NCBI GenBank assembly: GCA_028281045.1
Contig: JANQKP010000006.1
Coordinates: forward strand, 186,001 to 250,000
Reading direction: 5' to 3'
Source: Candidatus Altimarinota bacterium
Lineage (GTDB): Bacteria > Patescibacteriota > Gracilibacteria > UM-FILTER-43-11
Length of the DNA stretch: 64,000 bases
The notes beneath the pieces were generated by a model that had not been told where the DNA came from, ran no database searches, and worked only from the letters and a program-made list of their open reading frames with translations. The translations under genes were made by a program, and so were the position numbers. Below, one piece after another: positions 5,072-54,211 of this stretch (its first letter is position 1; the number at the start of each line of letters is the position of its first letter).

Positions 5072-6155
5072 TGAACTCGTCGAATAGATAGGCCGCATCT
5101 TCTGGCCCAGGACTTGCTTCCGGATGGAATTGAACTGAGAGCCACGGTTTTGAGTTGTGTCTTAATCCCGCCACGGTGTCATCGTTGGCATTTACAAACC
5201 AAGTTTTCCAACCTTTTGGAAGTGTTTTGGCATCCACCGCATATCCATGATTCTGACTAGTGATATAACAGCGTCCAGTGTCCACATCAATACAGGGTTG
5301 GTTTGCAGAGCGATGTCCATATTTCAGCTTGTAGGTATCTGCACCAACAGCTAGACCCATGATTTGGCTTCCTAAACAGATTCCAAAAATAGGCTTCCCT
5401 TCTTTCATGGCATATTTAACAGAATCTATCGTTTTATCTGCCATTTTAGGATCTCCAGGTCCGTTACTTACAAAAAGTCCGTCGTATTTTCCTTTAAGTT
5501 CTGCAATATCGTAGTCCCACGGAAGACGAATCACTTCTACTCCACGTTCTAGGAAATTACGGATGATATTGTGCTTAATTCCACAGTCCAGTAGTGCAAT
5601 AGTAGCTTTTTTCTTTCCTTTACCCTTAATAATGGTTTTCTTATTTACACTTACTTCAGCCACTAGGTTGGTTACATTTGGATCTTCAAAATCCATTCCT
5701 TTTGAATATTTTGTGCTTTCTGGGGCAATTTTTCCAAGCATCACTCCGTGTTCACGAAGTTTTTTAGTGAGCGCGCGAGTGTCTACCCCTTGAATCGCTG
5801 GTACCTTATGTTTTTTCAGGAAATCTGAAAGCGATTTCTTCGCTTGCCAGTGATGATGTTCTTCTGAGTATTCAGAAACAATAAGCCCACGAAGATGAAT
5901 CTTTCCAGATTCCATCATTGTGCTTACTCCTTCCAGCATTTTTTCTGCAGGAACCCCGTAGTTTCCAATAAGGGGGTAGGTTAAAACTAGAATTTGTCCG
6001 CGGTAACTTGGATCTGTAAGTGTTTCTGGGTAGCCCACCATACTGGTGTTAAAAACAACTTCGCCATCAACAAAGCAGTCCTTGCCTTTTGGTTCATCAC
6101 CAAATGACTCACCAATATATTCAGAGCCATCCGCAAGTATAAGTTTTAGTTTCAT
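5052..6155 (-). CDS. carA: Carbamoyl-phosphate synthase small (glutaminase) subunit
   Basis: CarA hydrolyses glutamine and passes ammonia to CarB for carbamoyl-phosphate synthesis, feeding pyrimidines and arginine. The protein has 367 residues: an N-terminal CarA domain (FNTSMVGYPETLTDPSY) and a class I glutamine amidotransferase with nucleophile Cys260 in GICLGSQ and the catalytic HPE in QFHPEASPGP. carB is not next to it and is not in the window. The start codon overlaps the recJ stop by one base (TAATG on the minus strand), so the two genes are probably co-translated. pyrF, another pyrimidine gene, lies about 23 kb away. Confidence 0.96.
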   Translation of the reverse strand: MKLKLILADGSEYIGESFGDEPKGKDCFVDGEVVFNTSMVGYPETLTDPSYRGQILVLTYPLIGNYGVPAEKMLEGVSTMMESGKIHLRGLIVSEYSEEHHHWQAKKSLSDFLKKHKVPAIQGVDTRALTKKLREHGVMLGKIAPESTKYSKGMDFEDPNVTNLVAEVSVNKKTIIKGKGKKKATIALLDCGIKHNIIRNFLERGVEVIRLPWDYDIAELKGKYDGLFVSNGPGDPKMADKTIDSVKYAMKEGKPIFGICLGSQIMGLAVGADTYKLKYGHRSANQPCIDVDTGRCYITSQNHGYAVDAKTLPKGWKTWFVNANDDTVAGLRHNSKPWLSVQFHPEASPGPEDAAYLFDEFIDKIAK

Positions 6156-7828
6156 TAGTTTTCAGAAGGTTTTAAATCTAACACTTTAAGTTGTACATTT
6201 TTGTTGCCGTTCCACTCGTTAATTTCAAGTGTGCAGGCAATGTCATAACTCAAGGTCGGATCAATTTTACCAAGATGCTGTCCAAAACGGAAGGCAATTG
6301 CTTTAAAAGTTTCATCTCCAGCCAGAACAGGGAATTGTAAGTGTTCTCCGGTTTTACCAACGGGGCGAATATCTAAAATTTTCGTGTTTTTAATCACTAC
6401 CGCAGGTTCTGGATTGTCTTGTCCAAAAGGTCCAAGGGGTTTTAAGGATTCCACCGTTTCCATAGAAACTTCACTTGGATTAATTTCACAATCTAAATGA
6501 AGTGTCGCTTTAAAATCTTCTGGATCAATGGCTTTTTCTCCAGCGGCTTTTACTTTTTCTAAGAAATCTAAAAGATTATCTTTAGGCAAAGTGAATCCAC
6601 CGGCCATCACATGGCCACCAAAGGCTGTGAAGAGATCTCTCATATTTTCGCGAAGCAACCCCGTGATATCAAAATTGTTTACGCTACGCATTGAGGCGAC
6701 TAAAGTATCGCCCTTATCTTGCATTACAATCGCAGGGCGACCATAAGTTTCTGCTACGCGACTAGCGATTAAACCAAGAAGTCCAGAGCGCCAGGCTTTA
6801 GAAACAATCACGACAATATGAGGAAGCGGCCTGCTTTCCATGTAGCGATGTACTCCTTTCATATATTCTTCCAGGAGTCCTTTGCGTTGCTCGTTGAGCT
6901 TATTTAAAATTTCTACTTTTTCTAAGTTCCCAAGTAGTAGTTCCAGACTATGGTCCGGAACATCTAGGCGCCCTGCGGCATTGATGCGCGGGCCAATGTG
7001 AAATCCAAGAGTAATAGAAGTAATATCATCTTTTTTAGCTCCAGAATCATCTAAAAGTTTAGAAATTCCTGGATGAGAACCTTGCATAAGACTGTTTAAA
7101 CCTTCTTTTACCATCACCCGGTTTTCTTGATTTAAAAGAGACATACAATCTCCTACGGTTCCAAGGGCGGCAATTCCAATTTGAGACTTTATATAAGTAT
7201 CAGCGGCTTCTTTATCCATATATAAAGGAGCTAGCGCTGAAATAAGTTTAAAGGCAATCCCGCTTCCGCAGATTTCCTTATTTTCATAAGGACAATCTGT
7301 TTGATGCGGATTAACAATGGCCACCGCAGGTGGCAGTTCCGCAGGCATCGTATGATGATCGGTCACTACCGTATCTATTCCATACTTTTTGGCCCGTTTA
7401 ATTTCTTCTAAGTTAGACGTTCCACTATCTACCGTAATAATAAGTTTCACATCTTCTTCGTGAAACTTATCTATAAAGTAATCTTTAAGTCCGTAGCCAT
7501 CTTTTTCACGATCTGGAAGCGTGTAAGAAACATCAGCCCCCTGTTTTTTAAGAAAATCGTAAACAATAGCGGTTCCGGTAATACCATCTACGTCATAATC
7601 TCCAAAGATCATGATTTTTTCTCCGTTTTCAACAGCAGATTGAATACGCTTAATAGCTTTATCCATGTCTTTTAGAGACATGGGATCTAAGAGTTGCTCA
7701 AAAGAACCATCAAAAAAGATGTCTTTTTCTTCTTTCGACGAAATACCTCTGTTTTTCAGTAGTTTCTCAATTAAATCGAGACCTTGGTCTTCCGATTTAA
7801 TGTTCCATTTTTTTCCTAGAACACTCAT
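6155..7828 (-). CDS. recJ: Single-stranded-DNA-specific exonuclease RecJ
   Basis: RecJ degrades single-stranded DNA 5' to 3' in recombination and repair. The 557-residue protein shows the DHH phosphoesterase motifs in order: DYDVDGITGTAI, TVDSGTSN, VTDHHTMP with the DHH triad, and VNPHQTDCPY. The DHHA1 domain follows (GGHVMAGGFTL), then a C-terminal OB-like domain. Length is normal for the family. carA follows with a one-base overlap. The start ATG is preceded by a C-rich sequence and no Shine-Dalgarno. Confidence 0.95.
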   Translation of the reverse strand: MSVLGKKWNIKSEDQGLDLIEKLLKNRGISSKEEKDIFFDGSFEQLLDPMSLKDMDKAIKRIQSAVENGEKIMIFGDYDVDGITGTAIVYDFLKKQGADVSYTLPDREKDGYGLKDYFIDKFHEEDVKLIITVDSGTSNLEEIKRAKKYGIDTVVTDHHTMPAELPPAVAIVNPHQTDCPYENKEICGSGIAFKLISALAPLYMDKEAADTYIKSQIGIAALGTVGDCMSLLNQENRVMVKEGLNSLMQGSHPGISKLLDDSGAKKDDITSITLGFHIGPRINAAGRLDVPDHSLELLLGNLEKVEILNKLNEQRKGLLEEYMKGVHRYMESRPLPHIVVIVSKAWRSGLLGLIASRVAETYGRPAIVMQDKGDTLVASMRSVNNFDITGLLRENMRDLFTAFGGHVMAGGFTLPKDNLLDFLEKVKAAGEKAIDPEDFKATLHLDCEINPSEVSMETVESLKPLGPFGQDNPEPAVVIKNTKILDIRPVGKTGEHLQFPVLAGDETFKAIAFRFGQHLGKIDPTLSYDIACTLEINEWNGNKNVQLKVLDLKPSEN

Positions 7829-7949
7829 ATGGAGGCATTATTTGGTAATCCATAATAGCCATTTTCACTATGAAAAAGCAAGAAATAGAGGTGAAAATTG
7901 GAAAAAATAAGAAAAACAGCTCTTTTTCCTTATTTTAAGCCAAAAACCC

Positions 7950-7978
7950 TTGTTTTTCGGGCCTTTTTTTGGTATAAT
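7950..7978 (+). promoter_or_regulatory. Promoter for the coupling-ATPase gene
   Basis: TTGTTT (7950-7955), 17 bases, then TATAAT (7973-7978). The predicted RNA start is about 12 bases before the ATG at 7997, leaving almost no leader. Confidence 0.6.
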
Positions 7979-7996
7979 ATTTAGATAAATTTATCT

Positions 7997-10522
7997 ATGG
8001 GAGAAACTCTCAAAAACATCTTAAGCTTCACTATCGCGAATTTCTGGCAAGTATTGCTAGGAATCTTAGGTGTCTACATAGTGCTAAAACTAACGGTTAA
8101 GTTAGCCCGTTTTATCTATATGATTCGCACCTCTAAGCACAATGTGTACATGAAAATTACATTGCCGCGTAACGATTCTAAGCTAGATCAGGACAAGCGC
8201 ACGGAAAAAGACTTTAAAGAGAAAATCGCAGTTATGGCGCAGCTCTATAGAGCCCTTTACGAAATCCGTGAGCTGAATCTATGGAATATGATTAAGACTA
8301 AGATCTGGCAAGCAGATAATGTTTCTTTCGAGATGTTTGTCGAAAATCAGCAGCTCAATTTCTACATTGTAGTGAATAAGTACTACAAAAATATTATTGA
8401 GAAGCAGATCACCACGTATTACAAAGATGCGGATATTCAAGTGGAAGAAAAACCTTATGAGCTTTATGAAAAAGGAAAGAAATCCAAAGGTTATTTCTTC
8501 TACGCCAAACGCCCTTTCTGGTTCCCGATTAAGACGTATAAAAACATGGAGGAAGATCCTCTAAATGATATGGCCAATGTGCTTTCTAAACTTCAAAAGA
8601 CAGAGAAAGCTGCCGTGCAAATCATTATTAATCCGGTGCCAAACGAAGGTTGGCGTAAGAAAACAGAAGAAATTGGAACCGCGCTTTATAAAAAGCAGCG
8701 TGCTCCAATTCGTATCCCTATTCCAATCATTGGACCTATTTTAGGCTTCCTATTAAATTCATTACTTCTTGTAACTGGATCTAAAGGAACCAACGCTCCA
8801 GGAGCGAGCGGAGGAGACTCTTATATCCGTATGCTTCAGCCTAAAGAAGAAGCCTTTAAGCAAATTGGGATTAAGGCCGGTGAAGTTGGATTCGATTGTT
8901 CTGTACGTGTGATTTCAGTAGCCGATACAGATCAGCGTGCCACAGAGATTACAAATAATTTAAACGTAGCCTTCTCGGTTTATCACGATGCATATCTAAA
9001 TCATTTCCAGTCTCGTCGTATCATTCCAATCGATGCGCTAAACAATAAACTGATGAAGTATCTCTTCTCGCATCGCATGCCAGGGATTCTTCATAAACGT
9101 AGTTTATTCACTCAAGAAGAGCTGGCTTCTGTGCTGCATTTCCCAGACTCTCGCTACAATAATATTCCTATTATTAAGTGGCTTAAATACAAAGTATTAC
9201 CACCTCCAGTAGATCTTCCACAGGAAGGAGTTGTCATTGGTAAGAATGTATTCCGTGGACAAGAAAAAGACGTGCGCATTATGCGCGACGATAGAACCCG
9301 TCATCAATATATCATCGGGAAATCTGGGTCAGGTAAATCGGTACTCTTACATTACATGGCTCGCCAAGACATTTGGAACGGAGACGGAGTTTGTATGGTA
9401 GATCCGCATGGAGATCTTGTAGAAGATACTCTGCGTGCGGTTCAAAAAGAACGTGCCAAAGACATTATTGTCTTTGACCCTGCAGACACTTCAAGACCTA
9501 TGGGTCTGAATCTGCTTGAGGCAGAAACGCCAGAAGAAATGGACCGTGCATCTCTAGATGCGATGGAGATTTTCATTAAGATTTTCGGAGATGAAATCTT
9601 TGGACCACGTATTCAGCATTACTTCCGTAATGCTTGTCTAACCCTGATGTCCGATAAAGAAGAAGGGGCAACGCTAATTGATGTACCACGTATATTCACG
9701 GATGAAGAGTTCCTAAAATACAAAGTAGGAAAAGTAGACAACGCCGTGGTGAAATCGTTCTGGGAACATGAGTATGCCAATACAGGAGACCGTGAGAAAC
9801 AAGAAATGATCCCGTATTTCAGTTCTAAATTCGGACCATTTATCACCAATACCACGATTCGTAACATTATTGGTCAGCCGAAATCTGCGTTTAATATCCG
9901 TGAGATCATGGATAACCAGAAAGTACTTCTGGTTAACCTTTCTAAAGGTAAGATTGGAGATCTTAATGCGCAGCTACTTGGTCTAATCTTTGTAAATAAG
10001 ATCAATATGGCTGCCATGGGTCGCCAAGATATGGCCAAAGAAGATCGTAAAGATTTCTATCTTTATGTCGATGAGTTCCAAAACTTTGCGACAGATACAT
10101 TCGCTTCAATTCTTTCTGAAGCGCGTAAGTATCGCCTAAGTTTAATCATGGCTCATCAGTACATTGCGCAGCTTACTAAAACCCCAACCGGTCATGACGA
10201 CACCCGTGTACGTGACGCCGTGTTTGGTAATGTGGGAACCCTTATGAGCTTTAAAGTAGGTGCCGATGATGCTGAATACCTAGCCAAAGAATATGCGCCG
10301 CAGCTTTCAGAGCAAGACATTATTGGAATTGCGAATTACAAGGCCTACGCGAAGCTAAATATTCATAACACTACTAGTAAGCCATTCTCTATGGAAACCA
10401 TTTGGGATCCGCAAGGGAATGACAAGATTGCAGAGATTCTGAAGCAGTACAGCCGCATGAAATACGGACGTAAAAAAGTGTTCGTAGATCAAGAGATTGA
10501 AGCCAGACTTGGGATCACCTAG
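7997..10522 (+). CDS. VirD4/TraD/HerA-like membrane ATPase
   Basis: An 841-residue protein with an N-terminal membrane helix (about residues 14-35), a long domain without recognised motifs, and a RecA-like motor. Walker A is GKSGSGKS at 441-448, followed by CMVDPHGDLVEDT. Walker B is YLYVDEFQNF with Asp692-Glu693, and a sensor-like MAHQYIAQL follows. This layout matches type IV secretion coupling proteins and DUF87-type ATPases, which move DNA or protein across membranes. A second hydrophobic stretch lies near residues 243-257. No relaxase or other conjugation gene is near, so a role in DNA uptake, pilus function or export is open. It appears to be transcribed alone; the next gene has its own promoter. 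Confidence 0.8.
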   Translation: MGETLKNILSFTIANFWQVLLGILGVYIVLKLTVKLARFIYMIRTSKHNVYMKITLPRNDSKLDQDKRTEKDFKEKIAVMAQLYRALYEIRELNLWNMIKTKIWQADNVSFEMFVENQQLNFYIVVNKYYKNIIEKQITTYYKDADIQVEEKPYELYEKGKKSKGYFFYAKRPFWFPIKTYKNMEEDPLNDMANVLSKLQKTEKAAVQIIINPVPNEGWRKKTEEIGTALYKKQRAPIRIPIPIIGPILGFLLNSLLLVTGSKGTNAPGASGGDSYIRMLQPKEEAFKQIGIKAGEVGFDCSVRVISVADTDQRATEITNNLNVAFSVYHDAYLNHFQSRRIIPIDALNNKLMKYLFSHRMPGILHKRSLFTQEELASVLHFPDSRYNNIPIIKWLKYKVLPPPVDLPQEGVVIGKNVFRGQEKDVRIMRDDRTRHQYIIGKSGSGKSVLLHYMARQDIWNGDGVCMVDPHGDLVEDTLRAVQKERAKDIIVFDPADTSRPMGLNLLEAETPEEMDRASLDAMEIFIKIFGDEIFGPRIQHYFRNACLTLMSDKEEGATLIDVPRIFTDEEFLKYKVGKVDNAVVKSFWEHEYANTGDREKQEMIPYFSSKFGPFITNTTIRNIIGQPKSAFNIREIMDNQKVLLVNLSKGKIGDLNAQLLGLIFVNKINMAAMGRQDMAKEDRKDFYLYVDEFQNFATDTFASILSEARKYRLSLIMAHQYIAQLTKTPTGHDDTRVRDAVFGNVGTLMSFKVGADDAEYLAKEYAPQLSEQDIIGIANYKAYAKLNIHNTTSKPFSMETIWDPQGNDKIAEILKQYSRMKYGRKKVFVDQEIEARLGIT

Positions 10523-46735: not shown

Positions 46736-47224
46736 GCCACTAAGAAGTTCGATTTTTCTCAATACAGGCATTATATCTGCTAATGTTTTTTTGCGAATAT
46801 AAATCATAGACGAGTGGTAGCCGACATTTTCTGGCCAACTTCCCTCGGGATTTGCCAGGGGAGGTAGGCCATTTATTATTATTTTTTCGTCGCCTTCATG
46901 AACACCTTCTATGGTGCTATAAACAACAAGTCTATAATCCCTAATAATCCTATTCAAGAAATTCAAAATATCTTCAGGTATGCCTTTAATGGCAGTGTTG
47001 TCATGAATATCTGAAGGGATTGAAACAGATAAAATGCCGTTTTCAAAAAATACGCCCCCCTCTTCAATTCTTCCCTTGACGATATTTTGAGCTATTTGAA
47101 AATTATCCAATCCTCCAGAGCGCCCGGATTCTCGGACCAGGGCTTCTATCGCTTGATGTTCAATATCACTCCTCATGCTGCTGAGATTATTCACTCCCTT
47201 CAAGGCTTTTTTGACCTTGTACAA
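46727..47224 (-). CDS. Hypothetical protein
   Basis: A 165-residue protein with no signal peptide or membrane helix. The middle has strand-rich segments (GGVFFENGILSVSIPSD, RLVVYSTIEGVHEG) and the C-terminus IYIRKKTLADIMPVLRKIELL is helical. It overlaps the 47187-47861 gene by 38 bases in another frame and the STAS gene by 9. A later ATG (MRSDIEHQ, at 47176) would remove the first overlap. No family recognised. Confidence 0.5.
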   Translation of the reverse strand: MYKVKKALKGVNNLSSMRSDIEHQAIEALVRESGRSGGLDNFQIAQNIVKGRIEEGGVFFENGILSVSIPSDIHDNTAIKGIPEDILNFLNRIIRDYRLVVYSTIEGVHEGDEKIIINGLPPLANPEGSWPENVGYHSSMIYIRKKTLADIMPVLRKIELLSGLL

Positions 47225-47861
47225 GGTCTTCCACGTGTTTCACGATTTCAAGGAAGACACTTTGCATGAACTCCTTAAGATGATCTATATCGTTATCGAT
47301 ATTAAACTTGTCTAAGTATCTTTTTAAGATGAATGCAGAAAGCTGAATCAGCTGCGAAGAAAGCGATGGTTCTGGCGTGCGGATCACAATGGTTTCCAGT
47401 GTTCTGTGTGGCTTACTTGCCGCTACCGTATCTAGATTGCGAATCCACTGATCAATCACCTCTTTATGTTCTGGTGGCAATGAGCCAAAATCGGCTTGTT
47501 TTTGTAGGGCCTGTCCAGGGTCTACGTTACCTGCTTGCAGGTAAGCTTCAACTTGGGCTGTTGCAGCGTCATCAATTAGTGCAATAATGGCAATAATAAG
47601 CTCACTAGGGATATTTTGCGCAATCACACGTGAAATAAGTAGGAAAAGACCTGTATTTTCTGGTTGCCCTAGAAATTGCACAATAATTCCAGCCAGATCA
47701 CTGTCTTGTTGCTTGGCATGACCCTCTTCTTTTTGCAGTTGTTTTACGGCAGCCTGCGTTTTGCGCATTTCTTCATTGAATTGCTCATCGCTCATTTCGT
47801 TTCCTTCGGAAACCGCGCCACCCATCATTAAATCCTCTAATCCTCCACCTACTTCTGACAT
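47187..47861 (-). CDS. Hypothetical helical protein
   Basis: A 224-residue protein with a glycine-rich front (GGGLEDLMMGG), a polar helix (about 25-50), a hydrophobic stretch (GLFLLISRVIAQNIPSELIIAIIALI) that could be a membrane-active or buried helix, and a helical C-terminal half. No signal peptide or known domain. It lies downstream of rpmA's terminator region and is probably transcribed separately with the next gene (46727-47224). Confidence 0.55.
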   Translation of the reverse strand: MSEVGGGLEDLMMGGAVSEGNEMSDEQFNEEMRKTQAAVKQLQKEEGHAKQQDSDLAGIIVQFLGQPENTGLFLLISRVIAQNIPSELIIAIIALIDDAATAQVEAYLQAGNVDPGQALQKQADFGSLPPEHKEVIDQWIRNLDTVAASKPHRTLETIVIRTPEPSLSSQLIQLSAFILKRYLDKFNIDNDIDHLKEFMQSVFLEIVKHVEDLVQGQKSLEGSE

Positions 47862-47875
47862 AGAATTTTAATATT

Positions 47876-47902
47876 AAAAAAGCATGTACAGTGTACATGC
47901 TT
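47876..47902 (-). terminator. Intrinsic terminator after rpmA
   Basis: AAGCATGTAC and GTACATGCTT form a perfect 10-bp stem with a 3-base loop, followed on the minus strand by T residues. Confidence 0.85.
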
Positions 47903-47921
47903 TCTAGTTTCTATTCTAGGT

Positions 47922-48206
47922 TTACTGCGCTGCAGCAACAATGTTTACGAATTTATCGCGGTATACACGACCATCGTACTTTTTCTGACGTTTTTCAGTG
48001 AATTCAACAACTCCATCACGTGTAGCGTATAGAGTGTAATCTTTACCAGTTTCTACACCCTCTCCAGCAAAAAATTTGTTCCCTTTTTGGCGAACAAGGA
48101 TATTTCCTGCACGTACTTTCTGACCAGCGTAGAGTTTAACCCCAAGGCGCTTAGCTATCGAATCTCGTCCATTCTTTGTTGAACCACCAGCTTTCTTATG
48201 TGACAT
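47922..48206 (-). CDS. rpmA: 50S ribosomal protein L27
   Basis: L27 reaches the peptidyl-transferase centre with its N-terminus. The protein has 94 residues from [16 protein letters not shown], the normal start. An in-frame ATG at 48260 would add an unlikely cysteine-containing extension, so I rejected it. The [19 protein letters not shown] motif and [16 protein letters not shown] are conserved. There is no cleavable Firmicutes-type extension. rplU is not adjacent. Confidence 0.95.
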
Positions 48207-48277
48207 AGTGTAAAAATTAGTTAGCGGCAGGATTTTACAGGCTTTTTTACACCTTGGCAAGCACTTTTTACATTCAA

Positions 48278-48306
48278 TTGAGCTTTGTAGTGGAAAATGC
48301 TATAAT
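48278..48306 (+). promoter_or_regulatory. Promoter for the 48330-49106 genes
   Basis: TTGAGC (48278-48283), 17 bases, TATAAT (48301-48306). The ATG is 24 bases beyond the -10, with an A-rich leader. Confidence 0.7.
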
Positions 48307-48329
48307 AGAGGTACAAAAATAAAAATAAA

Positions 48330-48638
48330 ATGCAGACGGAAGACAACATTATCGCAAGTGAAGAGGCTTTTGCTAAAAAAGTACAAGCTGCTTTCGAAAA
48401 ACACTGCGATGAGATCCATCAAAGAGCTAAATCAGAGCTAGAAGCCCTTGCTCCGGACGACGTAGCCGGTAGAAAGGCTGTTTTAGATAAGGAAAAAGCA
48501 GATTTAGATCAAACCGTTTCAGAGCTAAAAGAAGTCATTAGCTTTCAAGAGAAAGCCATGAACGAAAAACTAGAAGCTCTAGACGACCAAAAAGAAGAAA
48601 ACAACATTAATTTAGAGCAGCAGCTCGCCCAAATTTAA
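48330..48638 (+). CDS. Small coiled-coil protein
   Basis: A 102-residue, highly charged protein that appears to be one long helix or coiled coil. No signal peptide, cysteine or known motif. The frames of Ala/Leu/Glu repeat every 7 residues in places (ADLDQTVSELKEVISFQEKAM). It is 18 bases before the 48657 gene, and both share one promoter and end at the 49121 terminator. Function unknown. Confidence 0.6.
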   Translation: MQTEDNIIASEEAFAKKVQAAFEKHCDEIHQRAKSELEALAPDDVAGRKAVLDKEKADLDQTVSELKEVISFQEKAMNEKLEALDDQKEENNINLEQQLAQI

Positions 48639-48656
48639 AACTTAAACCAAAATATT

Positions 48657-49106
48657 ATGGAAGGACAAGAACAAGCAAATCAGGCGGCACAACAAGCCCC
48701 AGAACAACAAGTAGATGCTAATGAGCAAGCAGCAGCTACTCAGCAAACAGCAGAAGATCAAGGTACTGCTCAAACAAATGAAGCCAAACAGGAGGGTGAA
48801 AGCTTCCTTACTCGCTGGTGGAACAAGCTCACTAAGGGTAACCAAGTGATGACCAACATGGCTGAAGGAAAACCTCTAGATCAAGAAGGGCCTACTACTG
48901 TTGCTCAAGCAGAAACAGAGGAGCCACAGCAAGATGGTTATGTAGATAAACTAGCTAAAGGACACCAAGTGATGTCTGACATGGCTGCAGGAACTCCTAC
49001 ACAGGAGCCACCAACTCAAACAGCTGAAACTACCCCAGAAACCACTACAGAAGGTGGAACTGATGTAGCTCAAGCAGAAGCTCCAGAAGAGAAGCCAGGA
49101 GCTTAA
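48657..49106 (+). CDS. Low-complexity protein with a duplicated motif
   Basis: A 149-residue Gln/Ala/Glu-rich protein. Two copies of a short motif stand out: KLTKGNQVMTNMAEGKP (about 60-76) and KLAKGHQVMSDMAAGTP (about 101-117), separated by a disordered linker. Disordered front and tail surround them. The motif could be a repeated peptide-binding or assembly unit. There is no signal peptide. A strong terminator follows 15 bases later. Confidence 0.6.
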   Translation: MEGQEQANQAAQQAPEQQVDANEQAAATQQTAEDQGTAQTNEAKQEGESFLTRWWNKLTKGNQVMTNMAEGKPLDQEGPTTVAQAETEEPQQDGYVDKLAKGHQVMSDMAAGTPTQEPPTQTAETTPETTTEGGTDVAQAEAPEEKPGA

Positions 49107-49120
49107 TTTGAAACCAACTT

Positions 49121-49147
49121 AAAACCCCTCATAGCGAGGGGTTTTTT
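49121..49147. terminator. Bidirectional terminator
   Basis: CCCCTC, five-base loop, GAGGGG, with A4 before and T6 after. It can end the plus-strand pair (48330-49106) and the minus-strand gene at 49153. Confidence 0.85.
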
Positions 49148-49152
49148 GAGTT

Positions 49153-50361
49153 TTACTTTTGACTAACAGCGTCCTTGTGGACCCAGAAGTAACTGTCTTT
49201 GTAGTATTTCCCATTACGTCTTTCACGTATGGTGTAGACTCTTAGTTTTAGATGCTTATCTACAAACTCTTCGGTTTTAGGAACTCTGTACACATTTCCT
49301 TTTTGAATCTTAGCAGCTTTTAGGCGGTTGTCTAAGAATAGGCTAACACGATAAGACTTCGCATTTTCTTTTTCAGGCCATGCGAATTCATAGTAACCAC
49401 TCGTTTCATTCACAAGTTCGATGGCAAAGTCATCTTTTTCAGACTTATCTACAAATCTCAGGTCTGTTTTAACCTCAGGAGTTACCGTTACAATAGACCA
49501 ATCGTTGGCATAGCCCGCTAGGTCTAGAGAGGCAATGTATACATAGTACTTCGTGTAGTCTTTTAGGCGATCTAAAGTGATCTCATTCTTCTTAGAGAAG
49601 TTTAGATTAGGCATTTCACGCCAGTGGTACTCTGCAGGATCTATAAATTTCTTGCTGTAAGAAATGATATAAACCGTATCTGCATCTTTTTGCGCTACAG
49701 GATCCCAGTATAGATAAGCTTCTCCATTTTCTGCCTTGGTCATAATTCCTTTAATGGTCTTGGCTTTGATTTGAGTGGGTTCTATTCCTATCATTTCGGC
49801 AGAATCGATAGAGCAGTTCCCGTGGTGATCTGGAAGGTAAAGGCGCCCACCTTCTAGCGTTCCATTAGGTAAATGGAAGTAGATGGTTTTACCTAGGTAT
49901 TTACGCATTTGATTACATCCATAACCGAATTCAATCATATATTGAACTCCATCCCATATCACAAGGGCATCTTTCGTGCGCAGAAGTCTGTTTTTAGGCA
50001 AGAATCTGTTCACCAAAGTTCCCAAGCTTGTGTAAGGAGTGAAAGAGTGAACAATACAACGTTCGTTGTAAGCCACTTTCATATGTGTGATCTCATCTTT
50101 TTCATTCCACACAATTTTTACAGGACGCTCTAAGCTTAAAGTGCGACATCTAGGACTGTGTTGCACTAGGTATTCTTCTCCAGAGTTTAGGCGCACAATA
50201 GTGTCGTTGTAGGTTAAGTCAAAACGCACCACTTCGGCTTCTTCGGTTTTTCCTTTTTCAGCACGTGGTGTGAACTTTGCGTGTGATGTTGGAACCACAG
50301 CAAAAGTAGCGATTAGGGCTGCAGTTTGGAGGACAGACACAAAACGCTTCAATGATTTCAT
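49153..50361 (-). CDS. Secreted protein with fibronectin-III-like domains
   Basis: A 402-residue protein with a signal peptide (about 1-28, ending SHA). The first part (about 30-190) has paired cysteines (CRTLSL, ERCIVHS) and strand-rich sequence. A fibronectin-III-like unit (about 205-300) ends TKYYVYIASLDLAGYANDWSIVTVTP, and a second (about 310-390) has ESYRV-like YEFAWPEKENAKSYRVSLF. Such domains mediate surface contacts. It has its own sigma-70-like promoter (TTGTGC-16-TAGAAT) upstream. Function not known. Confidence 0.65.
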   Translation of the reverse strand: MKSLKRFVSVLQTAALIATFAVVPTSHAKFTPRAEKGKTEEAEVVRFDLTYNDTIVRLNSGEEYLVQHSPRCRTLSLERPVKIVWNEKDEITHMKVAYNERCIVHSFTPYTSLGTLVNRFLPKNRLLRTKDALVIWDGVQYMIEFGYGCNQMRKYLGKTIYFHLPNGTLEGGRLYLPDHHGNCSIDSAEMIGIEPTQIKAKTIKGIMTKAENGEAYLYWDPVAQKDADTVYIISYSKKFIDPAEYHWREMPNLNFSKKNEITLDRLKDYTKYYVYIASLDLAGYANDWSIVTVTPEVKTDLRFVDKSEKDDFAIELVNETSGYYEFAWPEKENAKSYRVSLFLDNRLKAAKIQKGNVYRVPKTEEFVDKHLKLRVYTIRERRNGKYYKDSYFWVHKDAVSQK

Positions 50362-50467: not shown

Positions 50468-52153
50468 TTATTCTGCAGCGCCGTCACGACGTTCTTGTCT
50501 GCGCTCTTGAACATTTTCTTTACGTTCTTGGCGATTTTCTTTCACTTCTTCCTTGCGTTCTTGGAAAGCATCTTTGATTTCTCCGCGGTTTTCTTTGATG
50601 TCTTGTACGTTTTCTTTAATTTCCCCACGGATTTCTTTACGATCTTCACCTTCAGCATCTTTAAGCTCTTGTCTTAGATCTTTAATCTCTCCACGGTTTT
50701 CCTTGTTTTCATCTTTAATAGCATCGATTTCCCCACGGAATTCTTCTCTATTTTCTTGGCGTACTTCTTGACGCTCTTCTCTCTTGATTTCAAGTTTTTC
50801 GCGGATAGCTTGAGCTTCTTCTTCAGGAAGATTTTCTAGACGCTCTTCAATTTTTTCTTGTCTTTCTGCTTTGCGCTCTTGAACTCTTTCTTTGCGCTCT
50901 TCAATATTAGCTTTACGTTCTTCTTTTTTCTCTTCAGCAGCAGCCTTACGCTCTTCCTTTTTCTCTTGGAAGCGTTCTTTATGATCTTCGAACTTTCCTT
51001 GTCTTTCTTCGCGTTTCTCTTCAGCAGCAGCCTTACGCTCTTCAATAGCAGCAGCTCTTTCTTCGTCTGAAAGACCTTCTAGTGAAGCTTCGAATTCTGC
51101 TTTACGCTCTTCACGGTTTACTTGTCTTTCTTCTTGGCGAGCTTCTTTTTTAGCTTCACGAATGTCTGAGAAGTCTCCAGATTCTACTGCAGATTCAAGA
51201 CGTTCTACACGAGCTTCGAAATTAGCAATTTCTTCATCGCTTGCTCCGTTTTCAATAAGTTCTGCTAGTTTGTCCCCAGAGTTTTCAAGGAACTTGTTAG
51301 CACGTTCTTCTTGGCGTTCTGCACGCTTCTCTTTAATTTCAGCGTGTTTTTCACGAGCCTCATCTGCACGTCCAAGTCCGTTAGCGCGTCCAAATTGTCC
51401 GTTAGCAATAGCGTCTTCAATACGAGCTAGTTTCGCTTCAGCATTTGCAATTTCTTCATCGGTAGCTCCAGCTTCAATAAGTTCATTGATTTTGTCTTCT
51501 ACACGCTCTTTAGCTTCTGTGGCACGTTCTTCACCACGAGCTCTAAATTCAGCTTTACGAGCCTCACGATCTCTTGGCTCTGGGATGTCGATAACAACAT
51601 CAGTACCTTCTTCAATAGCCGTTTCAACTTCGTCTACAATTTCATCTACTTCTTCTTGAGTTTCTACTACTTCTTCAAGGGCAGCAGCGGCAGTAACAGC
51701 CACTTCTTCGTCTTCAACCACTTCAACGACTTCGTCTAGGATTTCAACTTGTTCATCTTGAAGATCTGAAACAGCTTCAAGAATTTCCACTGCTTCATCA
51801 GCGTCATCAGTTTCCTCAGCTTCTTCAGCTGCGGCTTCTGTTTCTTCTAGAATAGTTTCAATAAGCTCTTCAATTTGTTCTTCGATAGATTCTTCAGGAT
51901 CTTCTTCCTCATCTTCGTCTTCGTCGTCCTGTGCGTGAGCGCTAGGTACGATGAAATCAATTAGAGAGGCACTGTTTTGCTTCTTAAGAAGCTTTTCAAG
52001 TTCGTCCATAGCTTCTTGTGCTTTATCAAGATGTTCTTGAGCAGAAGAGGCTTCTTCAGAAGTTGATTCAATTTCTACAGGCTTGTCTAGAGAACATGCT
52101 GAAAGACCAGTCATGAGCCCAAAAGCCATAAATAATATTAGTAATCGTTTCAT
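50468..52153 (-). CDS. Lipoprotein with an extremely long charged helix, paralogue of the anti-sigma-like protein
   Basis: A 561-residue protein. A lipobox GLSAC with Cys20 follows a 19-residue signal. An AHAQDD site (about 72-77) precedes an acidic stretch. From about residue 200 to the end the sequence is almost only E, K, R, A and Q, as in single alpha helices. The motif GATDEEIANAEAKLARIEDA occurs once, and GASDEEIANFEARVERLESA once more; the anti-sigma-like protein has a third copy. LQDEQVEILDEVVEVVEDE is shared too. It has its own ECF-like promoter. It probably spans outward from the membrane. Confidence 0.75.
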   Translation of the reverse strand: MKRLLILFMAFGLMTGLSACSLDKPVEIESTSEEASSAQEHLDKAQEAMDELEKLLKKQNSASLIDFIVPSAHAQDDEDEDEEEDPEESIEEQIEELIETILEETEAAAEEAEETDDADEAVEILEAVSDLQDEQVEILDEVVEVVEDEEVAVTAAAALEEVVETQEEVDEIVDEVETAIEEGTDVVIDIPEPRDREARKAEFRARGEERATEAKERVEDKINELIEAGATDEEIANAEAKLARIEDAIANGQFGRANGLGRADEAREKHAEIKEKRAERQEERANKFLENSGDKLAELIENGASDEEIANFEARVERLESAVESGDFSDIREAKKEARQEERQVNREERKAEFEASLEGLSDEERAAAIEERKAAAEEKREERQGKFEDHKERFQEKKEERKAAAEEKKEERKANIEERKERVQERKAERQEKIEERLENLPEEEAQAIREKLEIKREERQEVRQENREEFRGEIDAIKDENKENRGEIKDLRQELKDAEGEDRKEIRGEIKENVQDIKENRGEIKDAFQERKEEVKENRQERKENVQERRQERRDGAAE

Positions 52154-52203
52154 TTTTTAAAAAAGTTAATAATTAAACGAGTAATTTCTTTACCAACCCC
52201 TAT

Positions 52204-52230
52204 ATACACAACAGGGGACTTCATGTTACA
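52204..52230 (-). promoter_or_regulatory. ECF-type promoter before the lipoprotein gene
   Basis: Minus strand TGTAAC (52225-52230), 15 bases, GTGTAT (52204-52209). The same elements and the same 15-base spacing are found before the sigma gene, with AGTCC also shared in the spacer. Confidence 0.65.
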
Positions 52231-52236
52231 ACTTTT

Positions 52237-53643
52237 TTAATTCCGGTTCAATTGGCGTCGGCGGTTTTGAAGCCGCTCTCTGATTTCGGCATCCGATTTT
52301 TCCCTTACTGTAGGCGAAAAAACAGAGTTTTCACCATTTTTATCTTCTTCTTTAATTTGCTTTACGGCCTCCCGTTTTTCTTCCCTAATCTGTTCGCGTT
52401 TTTCCGCAGCCTCTTCCCGTTTTTCTTCAATTTTTTCTCGTCTTTCTTTTGGTTCTAAGTCTTTTAGTTCTTCTTTCACTTCTTCTCTAAAGGTTTCACG
52501 GCGCTCTTCGTGTCTTTCAATGATCTCTTCTTTTTCTTCTGGAGTGATCTTTCCAGACTCCACTTTCTTTTCTAAAACGGCTTCACGCTTTTCTTCCATT
52601 TTCTTATGGCGAGTTTTGCGCACTTCTTTTCCTTGTTCTCTAAGCAGTTTAAGGTCTCCAGATTGCACAGCGGTTTCTAGGCGATTTACTCTGTCTTCAA
52701 AGGCTGCAATTTCTTCATCTGTAGCACCACGTTCTTTAAGTTCTTCAAGGTGCTCTGCACGCTTTTCAATCATGCGCTCTGCTTGTGCCTTTTTGCGTTC
52801 CACGCGCTTAATCACTTGAGCTTCATGTTTTTCTTTTAGCTCAGTGATTCTTTCTTTAACTGGTTTTTTAAGGCTGCGTAATTGACGTTTAGTTCTTAGG
52901 TCAGTGCGGCGTTCTATGGTAAGCCTTGGCCTTTCTTCTCCGGCTTCAATAGCAGTTTCTACCGTATCCACAGCTACGTCTACTTGTTCTTGTTGATCTA
53001 CCGTATCTTCCAAGGCGTCTACGACAAATTCTGTCACAATTTCGTCTTCCACTACTTCAGTAGCTTCGGTGAAGACTTCGACAGTCTCATCTTGAAGATC
53101 ACTAATTTCTTCAAGAGCAGACTGAAGTTCTTCGGCTTCTTCTACATTTTCGGTTGCGGCTACAGCGGCATCGATTTCAGACACTACTTCTTCAGTGAGT
53201 TCGGTGATCAGTTCTTCATCGATGTCCACGTCTTCATCTTGGGCATAAGCGGTTGGAATCCAAGCCACTTCTTGTCCTTGTAGTGCTAGTTGTAATTTAT
53301 TTAAAGCAATGCGCGCATTTAGCACATGTGTATCTACGTCTTTAATAGTGGTCACTTGAGTATCTTTAGCAACCATAGCCATTTCCATCATAGCGCTTTC
53401 TGGTGCTTCCGGTGCTACACCTTGGAAGTACTGAGTTCCTCCAAAGACAAAGAGCAGAATCACAGCAAATGAAAGTAGTGGTTTAAAGGCAAATAGGCGA
53501 CTTACATCAAAGCGGCTTTCATTTTCTTTGGCTTCCAAAGCTTCATCTAGCATAGCTAGAATTTTTTTGTCTGCTGCTTTGCTGAGCTTGAGCTCAGGTA
53601 GTTTATTCAGCTTCCCTTCAATGTCTTTAAAGTCTTTATTCAC
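52237..53643 (-). CDS. Membrane anti-sigma-like protein with long charged extracytoplasmic helix
   Basis: A 468-residue protein: a cytoplasmic front of about 50 residues, one membrane helix (FKPLLSFAVILLFVFGGTQYF, about 52-72), then a long outside region. TAYAQDED (about 131-138) corresponds to the AHAQDD site of the lipoprotein. LQDETVEVFTEATEVVEDE and GATDEEIAAFEDRVNRLETA are shared with it, and the last 230 residues are mostly E/K/R. It overlaps the sigma gene by 8 bases, as anti-sigma factors often do. It lacks a clear zinc-binding HxxxCxxC. Binding to sigma is inferred from position. Confidence 0.7.
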   Translation of the reverse strand: MNKDFKDIEGKLNKLPELKLSKAADKKILAMLDEALEAKENESRFDVSRLFAFKPLLSFAVILLFVFGGTQYFQGVAPEAPESAMMEMAMVAKDTQVTTIKDVDTHVLNARIALNKLQLALQGQEVAWIPTAYAQDEDVDIDEELITELTEEVVSEIDAAVAATENVEEAEELQSALEEISDLQDETVEVFTEATEVVEDEIVTEFVVDALEDTVDQQEQVDVAVDTVETAIEAGEERPRLTIERRTDLRTKRQLRSLKKPVKERITELKEKHEAQVIKRVERKKAQAERMIEKRAEHLEELKERGATDEEIAAFEDRVNRLETAVQSGDLKLLREQGKEVRKTRHKKMEEKREAVLEKKVESGKITPEEKEEIIERHEERRETFREEVKEELKDLEPKERREKIEEKREEAAEKREQIREEKREAVKQIKEEDKNGENSVFSPTVREKSDAEIRERLQNRRRQLNRN

Positions 53644-54166
53644 TGTAAATTTTTTGATAAATCTTTTTAAAACGTTTCAAGGCTCTAGAGAGCTGTGTAC
53701 GAATGGCTCCTTCTCTTTTACCTGTGATACCAGCGATCTCTTCGTAAGAAAAATCATTGATGTATTTCATAACAATAATGTCTTTCTCATCTGGCTTAAG
53801 AGCATCTAAGGTACGTAATACGTTTTCTTTTTCTATACCTTTAGCCGTATCATTCAGGCCAAGTTCTGAAGGAATATCGAAACCTCCTTCTTGAAGCTTT
53901 TCTAGTGACACGGTTTGCTTTTTGAGCCCCCTCCAATGATTTTTTAGGTGATTCCCAGCGATGGTGAATAACCATTGCTGAAAGTTCCCTTTCTCAGGGT
54001 CGAATTTTTCGAAGTTCTCATACGCTTTGAGCACAATATCCATCATCAAATCCTCGGCGAGAGCTTCATTGAAACTCAGGCGATAATTTAGATAGGTAAA
54101 GAGTTTATGTTTATTGTCCTCATAGTGAAGAGCAAACTGCCTGTGATGCTCGATGTTTTGGCTCAC
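53636..54166 (-). CDS. ECF-type RNA polymerase sigma factor
   Basis: About 176 residues from a GTG at 54166. Region 2 contains EALAEDLMMDIVLKAYENFEKFDPEKGNFQQWLFTIAGNHLKNHWR, and region 4 contains DIIVMKYINDFSYEEIAGITGKREGAIRTQLSRALKRFKKIY. The frame is open to a GTG at 54190, but that codon lies inside the -10 element and cannot be the start. An ECF-like promoter (TGTAAC-N15-GTGTAT) lies upstream, so it is probably autoregulated. The anti-sigma-like gene overlaps it. Confidence 0.9.
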   Translation of the reverse strand: MSQNIEHHRQFALHYEDNKHKLFTYLNYRLSFNEALAEDLMMDIVLKAYENFEKFDPEKGNFQQWLFTIAGNHLKNHWRGLKKQTVSLEKLQEGGFDIPSELGLNDTAKGIEKENVLRTLDALKPDEKDIIVMKYINDFSYEEIAGITGKREGAIRTQLSRALKRFKKIYQKIYSE

Positions 54167-54184
54167 AGTAAGTGTCAAAATTAA

Positions 54185-54211
54185 ATACACAAAACAGGAC
54201 TATTTGTTACA
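54185..54211 (-). promoter_or_regulatory. ECF-type promoter before the sigma gene
   Basis: Minus strand TGTAAC (54206-54211), 15 bases, GTGTAT (54185-54190). It matches the promoter of the lipoprotein gene in both boxes and in spacing. Confidence 0.65.

Follow-up and report, generated by a model that had tools for sequence, protein, structure and literature searches.

The locus described here occupies positions 50,468 to 54,211 of a 64,000-nucleotide stretch of contig JANQKP010000006.1 (the window). The source is an uncultured small-genome bacterium of the Peregrinibacteria/Patescibacteria with a genome of 1.2 Mb, labelled G000 among the compared genomes. On the minus strand, the genes of an extracytoplasmic function (ECF) sigma factor, a 468-residue protein with one transmembrane (TM) helix, and a 561-residue lipoprotein follow one another. 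Together, they probably form an autoregulated sigma/anti-sigma switch for the cell envelope, read as a switch for envelope or S-layer stress, with outputs at the cell surface. To our knowledge, gene regulation has hardly been tested in Patescibacteria, most of which cannot be grown. What the locus offers for tests in vitro is a defined promoter, a clade of sigma factors, and a predicted surface regulon of small size—S-layer proteins, secreted helices, and an ion channel. Its features are the following:

54185–54211, minus strand: ECF-type promoter of the sigma gene, exact TGTAAC-N15-GTGTAT, one of three in the genome; conserved upstream of the sigma or anti-sigma gene in relatives
53636–54166, minus strand: ECF sigma factor gene, 176 residues; Pfam Sigma70_r2 47.8 bits and Sigma70_r4_2 56.5 bits, alignment with relatives, clade support 100/98
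52237–53643, minus strand: gene of the anti-sigma-like one-TM protein, 468 residues, no Cys; adjoins the sigma gene in all clade loci and is bridged to DUF5667 by the protein L165
53509–53643, minus strand: putative cytosolic sigma-binding segment, residues 1–45, with the conserved pattern KxIxGxLKxxxxFxLSxExDxxIL
53419–53490, minus strand: single TM helix, approximately residues 52–75; a hydrophobic stretch, modeled as a helix at low confidence
52945–53349, minus strand: predicted extracytoplasmic four-helix bundle, residues 99–233; AlphaFold predicted local distance difference test (pLDDT) of roughly 90 or higher except in the loop, conserved core alignment
53236–53250, minus strand: AYAQD loop motif, residues 132–136, where the protein may be processed; the loop is modeled as disordered, with pLDDT below 50 at 127–136
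52240–52938, minus strand: charged helical tail, residues 236–468, with the GATDEEIA hairpin module; from composition and periodicity, not conserved in relatives
52204–52230, minus strand: the same promoter before the lipoprotein gene, exact, 50 nt upstream of the ATG
50468–52153, minus strand: lipoprotein gene, 561 residues, lipobox LSAC (Cys20); paralogue of the anti-sigma ectodomain without cytosolic segment and TM helix
51608–52045, minus strand: predicted lipoprotein four-helix bundle, residues 37–182; from model and alignment
51926–51940, minus strand: AHAQD loop motif, residues 72–76; from sequence, in a loop modeled as disordered (61–87)
50471–51556, minus strand: lipoprotein tail, residues 200–561; two hairpin modules followed by charged helices of 11-residue charge periodicity

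Sigma factor and locus layout

The sigma protein features sigma70 regions 2 and 4 only, above the curated cut-off (Pfam, TIGR02937), which places it among the ECF sigma factors. Its open reading frame (ORF) opens at GTG 54190, inside the −10 hexamer. The likely start is GTG 54166 (VSQNIEHH...), 18 nt past the −10 and aligned with the start in relatives; all compared genomes are assemblies of uncultured organisms with inferred start codons. In the sigma tree, the protein falls into one monophyletic clade of 13 rows, with the sigma of G010 as sister (97/90), followed by that of G034. Metagenome-assembled genomes within the clade carry the names Candidatus Peregrinibacteria, Gracilibacteria, and Patescibacteria.

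Between the sigma stop and the start of the one-TM protein there is an overlap of 8 nt, in agreement with an initial annotation of this DNA that had proposed such an overlap with a one-helix membrane protein gene. That annotation had also named gene order in related genomes as a check: the sigma and anti-sigma-like genes adjoin at all 12 loci of the sigma clade. This conserved pair, together with its promoter, supports the proposed anti-sigma-like role. Bounded by the anti-sigma gene on one side and an FN3-like gene (49153–50361) on the other, the slot that follows the pair is filled by the lipoprotein gene. G001, G012, G002, and G013 have the same FN3-like gene a few kilobases past the sigma/anti-sigma pair, with other genes in the slot. 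The type of circuit is familiar; its parts and surface output are not. The part of the window at 47187–50361, comprising the FN3-like gene, two small genes, rpmA, and a gene for 224 residues, is a block syntenic in G001 and G012.

Promoter and target genes

The exact promoter stands before both the sigma and the lipoprotein gene, as the initial annotation had claimed. It had also been described as occurring nowhere else, which holds for the window: besides these two sites, a scan gave zero matches even allowing two mismatches. Genome-wide, there is one further exact site; it precedes a second ECF sigma gene by 61 nt. All three sites precede a start codon, and the reversed control gave 0 in this genome-wide search, which had been named beforehand as a check.

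The comparison covered 18 genomes of the same family and 145 genomes of the class—10 with an orthologous sigma and 135 others. The family genomes hold 21 exact sites versus 3 for a control pattern. Class-wide, 21 exact sites occur in the 10 sigma-bearing genomes versus 5 in the other 135 (rate ratio 57, p ~2e-20). With the loci L130 and L132 included, 21 of 23 sites fall within the 61 nt before an ORF start, the strict placement rule, for which random positions give 9%; by reading, the remaining two are also upstream of starts. At all 12 clade loci, the promoter, exact or with one mismatch, stands before the sigma or anti-sigma gene. Exact copies precede the sigma gene in G000, G015, G009, G007, L130, and L132, and the anti-sigma gene in G001, G012, G002, G013, and G009. 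G016 has a one-mismatch copy before its anti-sigma gene and G004 has one before each gene of the pair; the sigma genes of G002 and G013 carry GTGTAA variants of the −10.

Further exact copies precede genes of several kinds: surface-layer homology (SLH) proteins occupying the slot past the anti-sigma gene (G015 and G007); an unlinked G009 protein that, by reading, resembles the SLH protein of G015; secreted charged proteins (G002, G013, and G004); an ion-channel protein (G001 and G012; Ion_trans_2 63 bits); a lipoprotein (G013); and a 119-residue protein of unknown kind (G002). G000 itself encodes many SLH domains. An envelope output of the switch is supported by these targets, which include SLH and secreted proteins.

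Anti-sigma-like protein and its kinship to DUF5667

The AlphaFold models were built on 12 sequences for the anti-sigma-like protein and 8 for the lipoprotein. In the former, the bundle is predicted to consist of helices 99–121, 143–164, 170–197, and 201–233, with a disordered loop at 127–136. The initial annotation had described the outside region as one very long E/K/R helix; this fits the charged tail, but the predicted bundle comes first. The loop motif [AT]xA[QEA] occurs in every homologue having the loop—the −1 Ala being invariant, −3 being Ala or Thr, +1 being Q, E, or A, and the middle residue varying—and is absent in G007, L130, and L132. Past the bundle, a hairpin module opens with GATDEEIA, continued in relatives by GRxxGLxTA, and is followed by a variable tail: E/K/R-rich in G000 and G015, acidic in most, with Cys-rich DUF4215 repeats in G007, and almost absent in some relatives. 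The HxxxCxxC motif of zinc anti-sigma factors is absent from this Cys-free protein. Fold searches with the models of both this protein and the lipoprotein returned nothing at E ≤ 0.001. A sequence search of the PDB with the ectodomain core gave weak matches to designed bundles and FliS, and matches to Pfam DUF2680 and NCBIfam XXXCH stayed below the cut-off and were rejected.

The DUF5667 (PF18915) proteins of the class share this layout: they follow an ECF sigma gene and feature a cytosolic N-segment, one TM helix, and a helical ectodomain. DUF5667 genes adjoin ECF sigma genes across many families of the class, and several of the proteins share FIPxAxAxDE. The bridge to the anti-sigma-like protein is L165, the neighbor of the G010 sigma: a DUF5667 protein (33.9 bits) that follows the sigma gene and carries WIPTAYAEDD. 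Its segment HLKFAKRRQEELEVLLGGRPLAYWIPTAYAEDD pairs with HVLNARIALNKLQLALQGQEVAWIPTAYAQDE of the anti-sigma-like protein (alignment z = 13), and profile comparison by hhalign gave E 4e-6. Neither the 468-residue nor the 561-residue protein matches the Pfam DUF5667 model (gathering score 27 bits). The anti-sigma-like protein is called a divergent relative of the DUF5667 type, and not a member, because this model is not reached. In comparison, it has lost the first DUF5667 helix (GxxLYPxK), and in place of the remainder stand a conserved four-helix core and a charged tail. None of the papers searched mentions DUF5667; the kinship links this domain of unknown function to envelope sensing.

The closest solved structure to the sigma by sequence is BldN of Streptomyces, solved with its anti-sigma RsbN (6dxo). 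RsbN, of the ASDIII class of anti-sigmas, makes contact with both domains of the sigma (PMC7406223). The cytosolic helices of the anti-sigma-like protein are without sequence match to RsbN, and its modeled N terminus is of low confidence.

In G009, a 373-residue ORF upstream of an intact pair (L024, G009:C84, 6396–7517) joins a sigma region 4-like part to the anti-sigma TM helix and bundle and may be a natural sigma/anti-sigma fusion or relic.

Lipoprotein

The lipoprotein is a paralogue of the anti-sigma ectodomain, as initially annotated: the core alignment reaches z = 17 against 2000 composition-preserving shuffles, 0 of which scored as high, with colinear motifs, and BLASTP of the two proteins gives 37% over 249 columns (E 8e-17). 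The A-x-AQD site ascribed to both proteins is found as AYAQD and AHAQD. The shared GA(T/S)DEEIA motif is present as well; it is the start of a helical-hairpin module, of which the lipoprotein has two copies. The modeled bundle consists of helices 37–62, 90–114, 118–145, and 149–182.

The tail is modeled as three long helices (363–440, 444–499, and 503–560), with a charge periodicity of 3.67 residues (11/3) at a power of 37.6 versus a shuffle maximum of 12.9. A promoter target in G004 has the same kind of 11-residue repeats (power 22.4 versus 12.7). The tail is not a classic single alpha helix because same-charge i,i+4 pairs outnumber opposite-charge pairs (59 versus 10 in residues 356–561). 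Group 3 LEA proteins have 11-residue periodic, charge-rich helices that the tail resembles; searches with Pfam, including LEA_4, gave zero LEA matches. CpxP and Spy are induced helical extracytoplasmic proteins with possible feedback on their own sensor. The likeness would be that of an induced helical envelope protein with possible feedback, the lipoprotein being without a family match in Pfam or a match to a solved fold.

This lipoprotein was found within one genus only, and the full-bundle form is, as far as the 18 family genomes show, a lineage-specific addition. Support in the ectodomain tree is too poor for dating the duplication. On contig C108 of G004, the locus L107 (1539–2300) encodes a 253-residue secreted paralogue without the bundle, with an exact promoter and 11-residue KAERELKKAER repeats. 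L029 (3395–5383 of the same contig) encodes a 662-residue secreted protein in which the sensor bundle precedes thrombospondin type 3 repeats, at a distance from any sigma gene of the contig.

Proposed mechanism and alternatives

Gene arrangement, paralogy, conservation and placement of the promoter, target classes, and kinship to DUF5667 are read directly from the sequences. From the family pattern, we infer sequestration and release of the sigma: the one-TM protein would bind the sigma through its short cytosolic end and hold it inactive, and the DUF5667-derived extracytoplasmic bundle would sense some envelope state. The sigma would then be released, probably via stepwise proteolysis—an M50 site-2 protease is encoded in the genome—and the freed sigma would recognize TGTAAC-N15-GTGTAT and transcribe its own operon, the lipoprotein gene, and surface genes. 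The lipoprotein, as a free copy of the sensor bundle with a charge-striped helix, may damp or prolong the response through the shared sensor domain. Several observations weigh against this switch. The cytosolic segment has no detectable sequence match to any solved anti-sigma, RsbN included, and the 468-residue protein has no DUF5667 match at E ≤ 0.1. A lipoprotein with the full bundle under the promoter occurs in G000 only, with related secreted paralogues in G004. The six one-mismatch promoter matches in the genome are close to chance expectation, as are two-mismatch counts; the wider regulon in G000 is uncertain for this reason.

For the lipoprotein, the role of an envelope effector is the most likely, perhaps combined with that of a feedback decoy. 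A role mainly as decoy is a tentative option, in which the free bundle would compete for ligand or protease, or pair with the anti-sigma ectodomain, and so end the response in a CpxP-like manner. It would suit a protein that has retained the sensor bundle in full along with the AxA/QD loop, is devoid of the sigma-binding segment and TM helix, and stands under the sigma promoter. However, an effector is more likely than a pure regulator because other genomes fill this slot, behind this promoter, with unrelated surface proteins—the SLH proteins of G015 and G007—and the sigma-promoter paralogue of G004 lacks the bundle, which fits an effector better. More doubtful is a trigger in which signal peptidase I, as site-1 protease, would cut an opened bundle at the AxA/QD loop between helices 1 and 2, after which the M50 protease would free the sigma. 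Signal peptidase cleavage follows a −3,−1 residue rule, which the loop residues match, and the loop is predicted to be disordered in both models; this conserved loop is a possible protease switch. Signal peptidase acts as site-1 protease on the anti-sigma ectodomain of RsiV, the partner of sigmaV in Bacillus subtilis (PMC6066255). The likeness to RsiV is in the AxA-type motif only: site position and context differ, and the RsiV domain DUF4179 was not detected in the anti-sigma-like protein, with one sub-threshold match (16 bits) in L130. Moreover, the hydrophobic stretch before the site spans merely about 5–8 residues, roughly 55 residues beyond the TM helix, and the sub-clade without the motif has nevertheless kept the circuit. 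A signal peptidase I gene does have a one-mismatch promoter, but this could be chance. The combination of a sigma-induced, lipid-anchored sensor copy as decoy, a signal peptidase trigger at a loop that is conserved among anti-sigmas of the DUF5667 type, and straight 11-residue charge-striped helices as a new envelope class of Patescibacteria is unlikely as a whole.

Recognition of the promoter by another ECF sigma instead, such as the second one in the genome, is distinctly unlikely: the gene of this second sigma is also under the exact promoter, but the sites follow the presence of the sigma clade (9 of 10 same-family genomes with the clade versus 0 of 8 without; p 4e-4), and other ECF genes occur without sites in every class genome searched. 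The initial annotation had considered a mechanical or envelope-spacing sensor plausible. In such a reading, long charged helices would gauge the distance from membrane to surface layer. The long predicted helices of 78, 56, and 58 residues and the surface-layer targets in relatives would suit such a ruler. It is nonetheless very improbable because the long E/K/R tail differs among relatives. Those that share the sigma, the promoter, and the ectodomain core have acidic or Cys-rich tails of other lengths, or almost none. Both tails are strongly biased in composition, but low-complexity E/K/R sequence can hardly have mimicked the paralogy, which is carried by the non-repetitive core.

Second sigma gene and one-mismatch sites

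The second ECF sigma gene of G000 lies at C1:57817–58293, with a FecR-DUF5667 protein downstream (L034, G000:C1:50000–66000, 5743–8354); its exact promoter suggests cross-regulation. The one-mismatch sites of G000 were rejected as firm regulon members, their count being near chance, and are leads only. At L070 (G000:C5:34808), the site reads TGTAAC...GTGTTT and lies approximately 100 nt upstream of the signal peptidase I gene. At L067 (G000:C1:123585), CGTAAC...GTGTAT lies approximately 650 nt before the gene of a long SLH protein, and an Rfam scan of this long leader gave zero matches. The sites at L065 and L069 are closely upstream of a membrane protein gene and the gene of a secreted helical protein with an LTDEQKETI motif.

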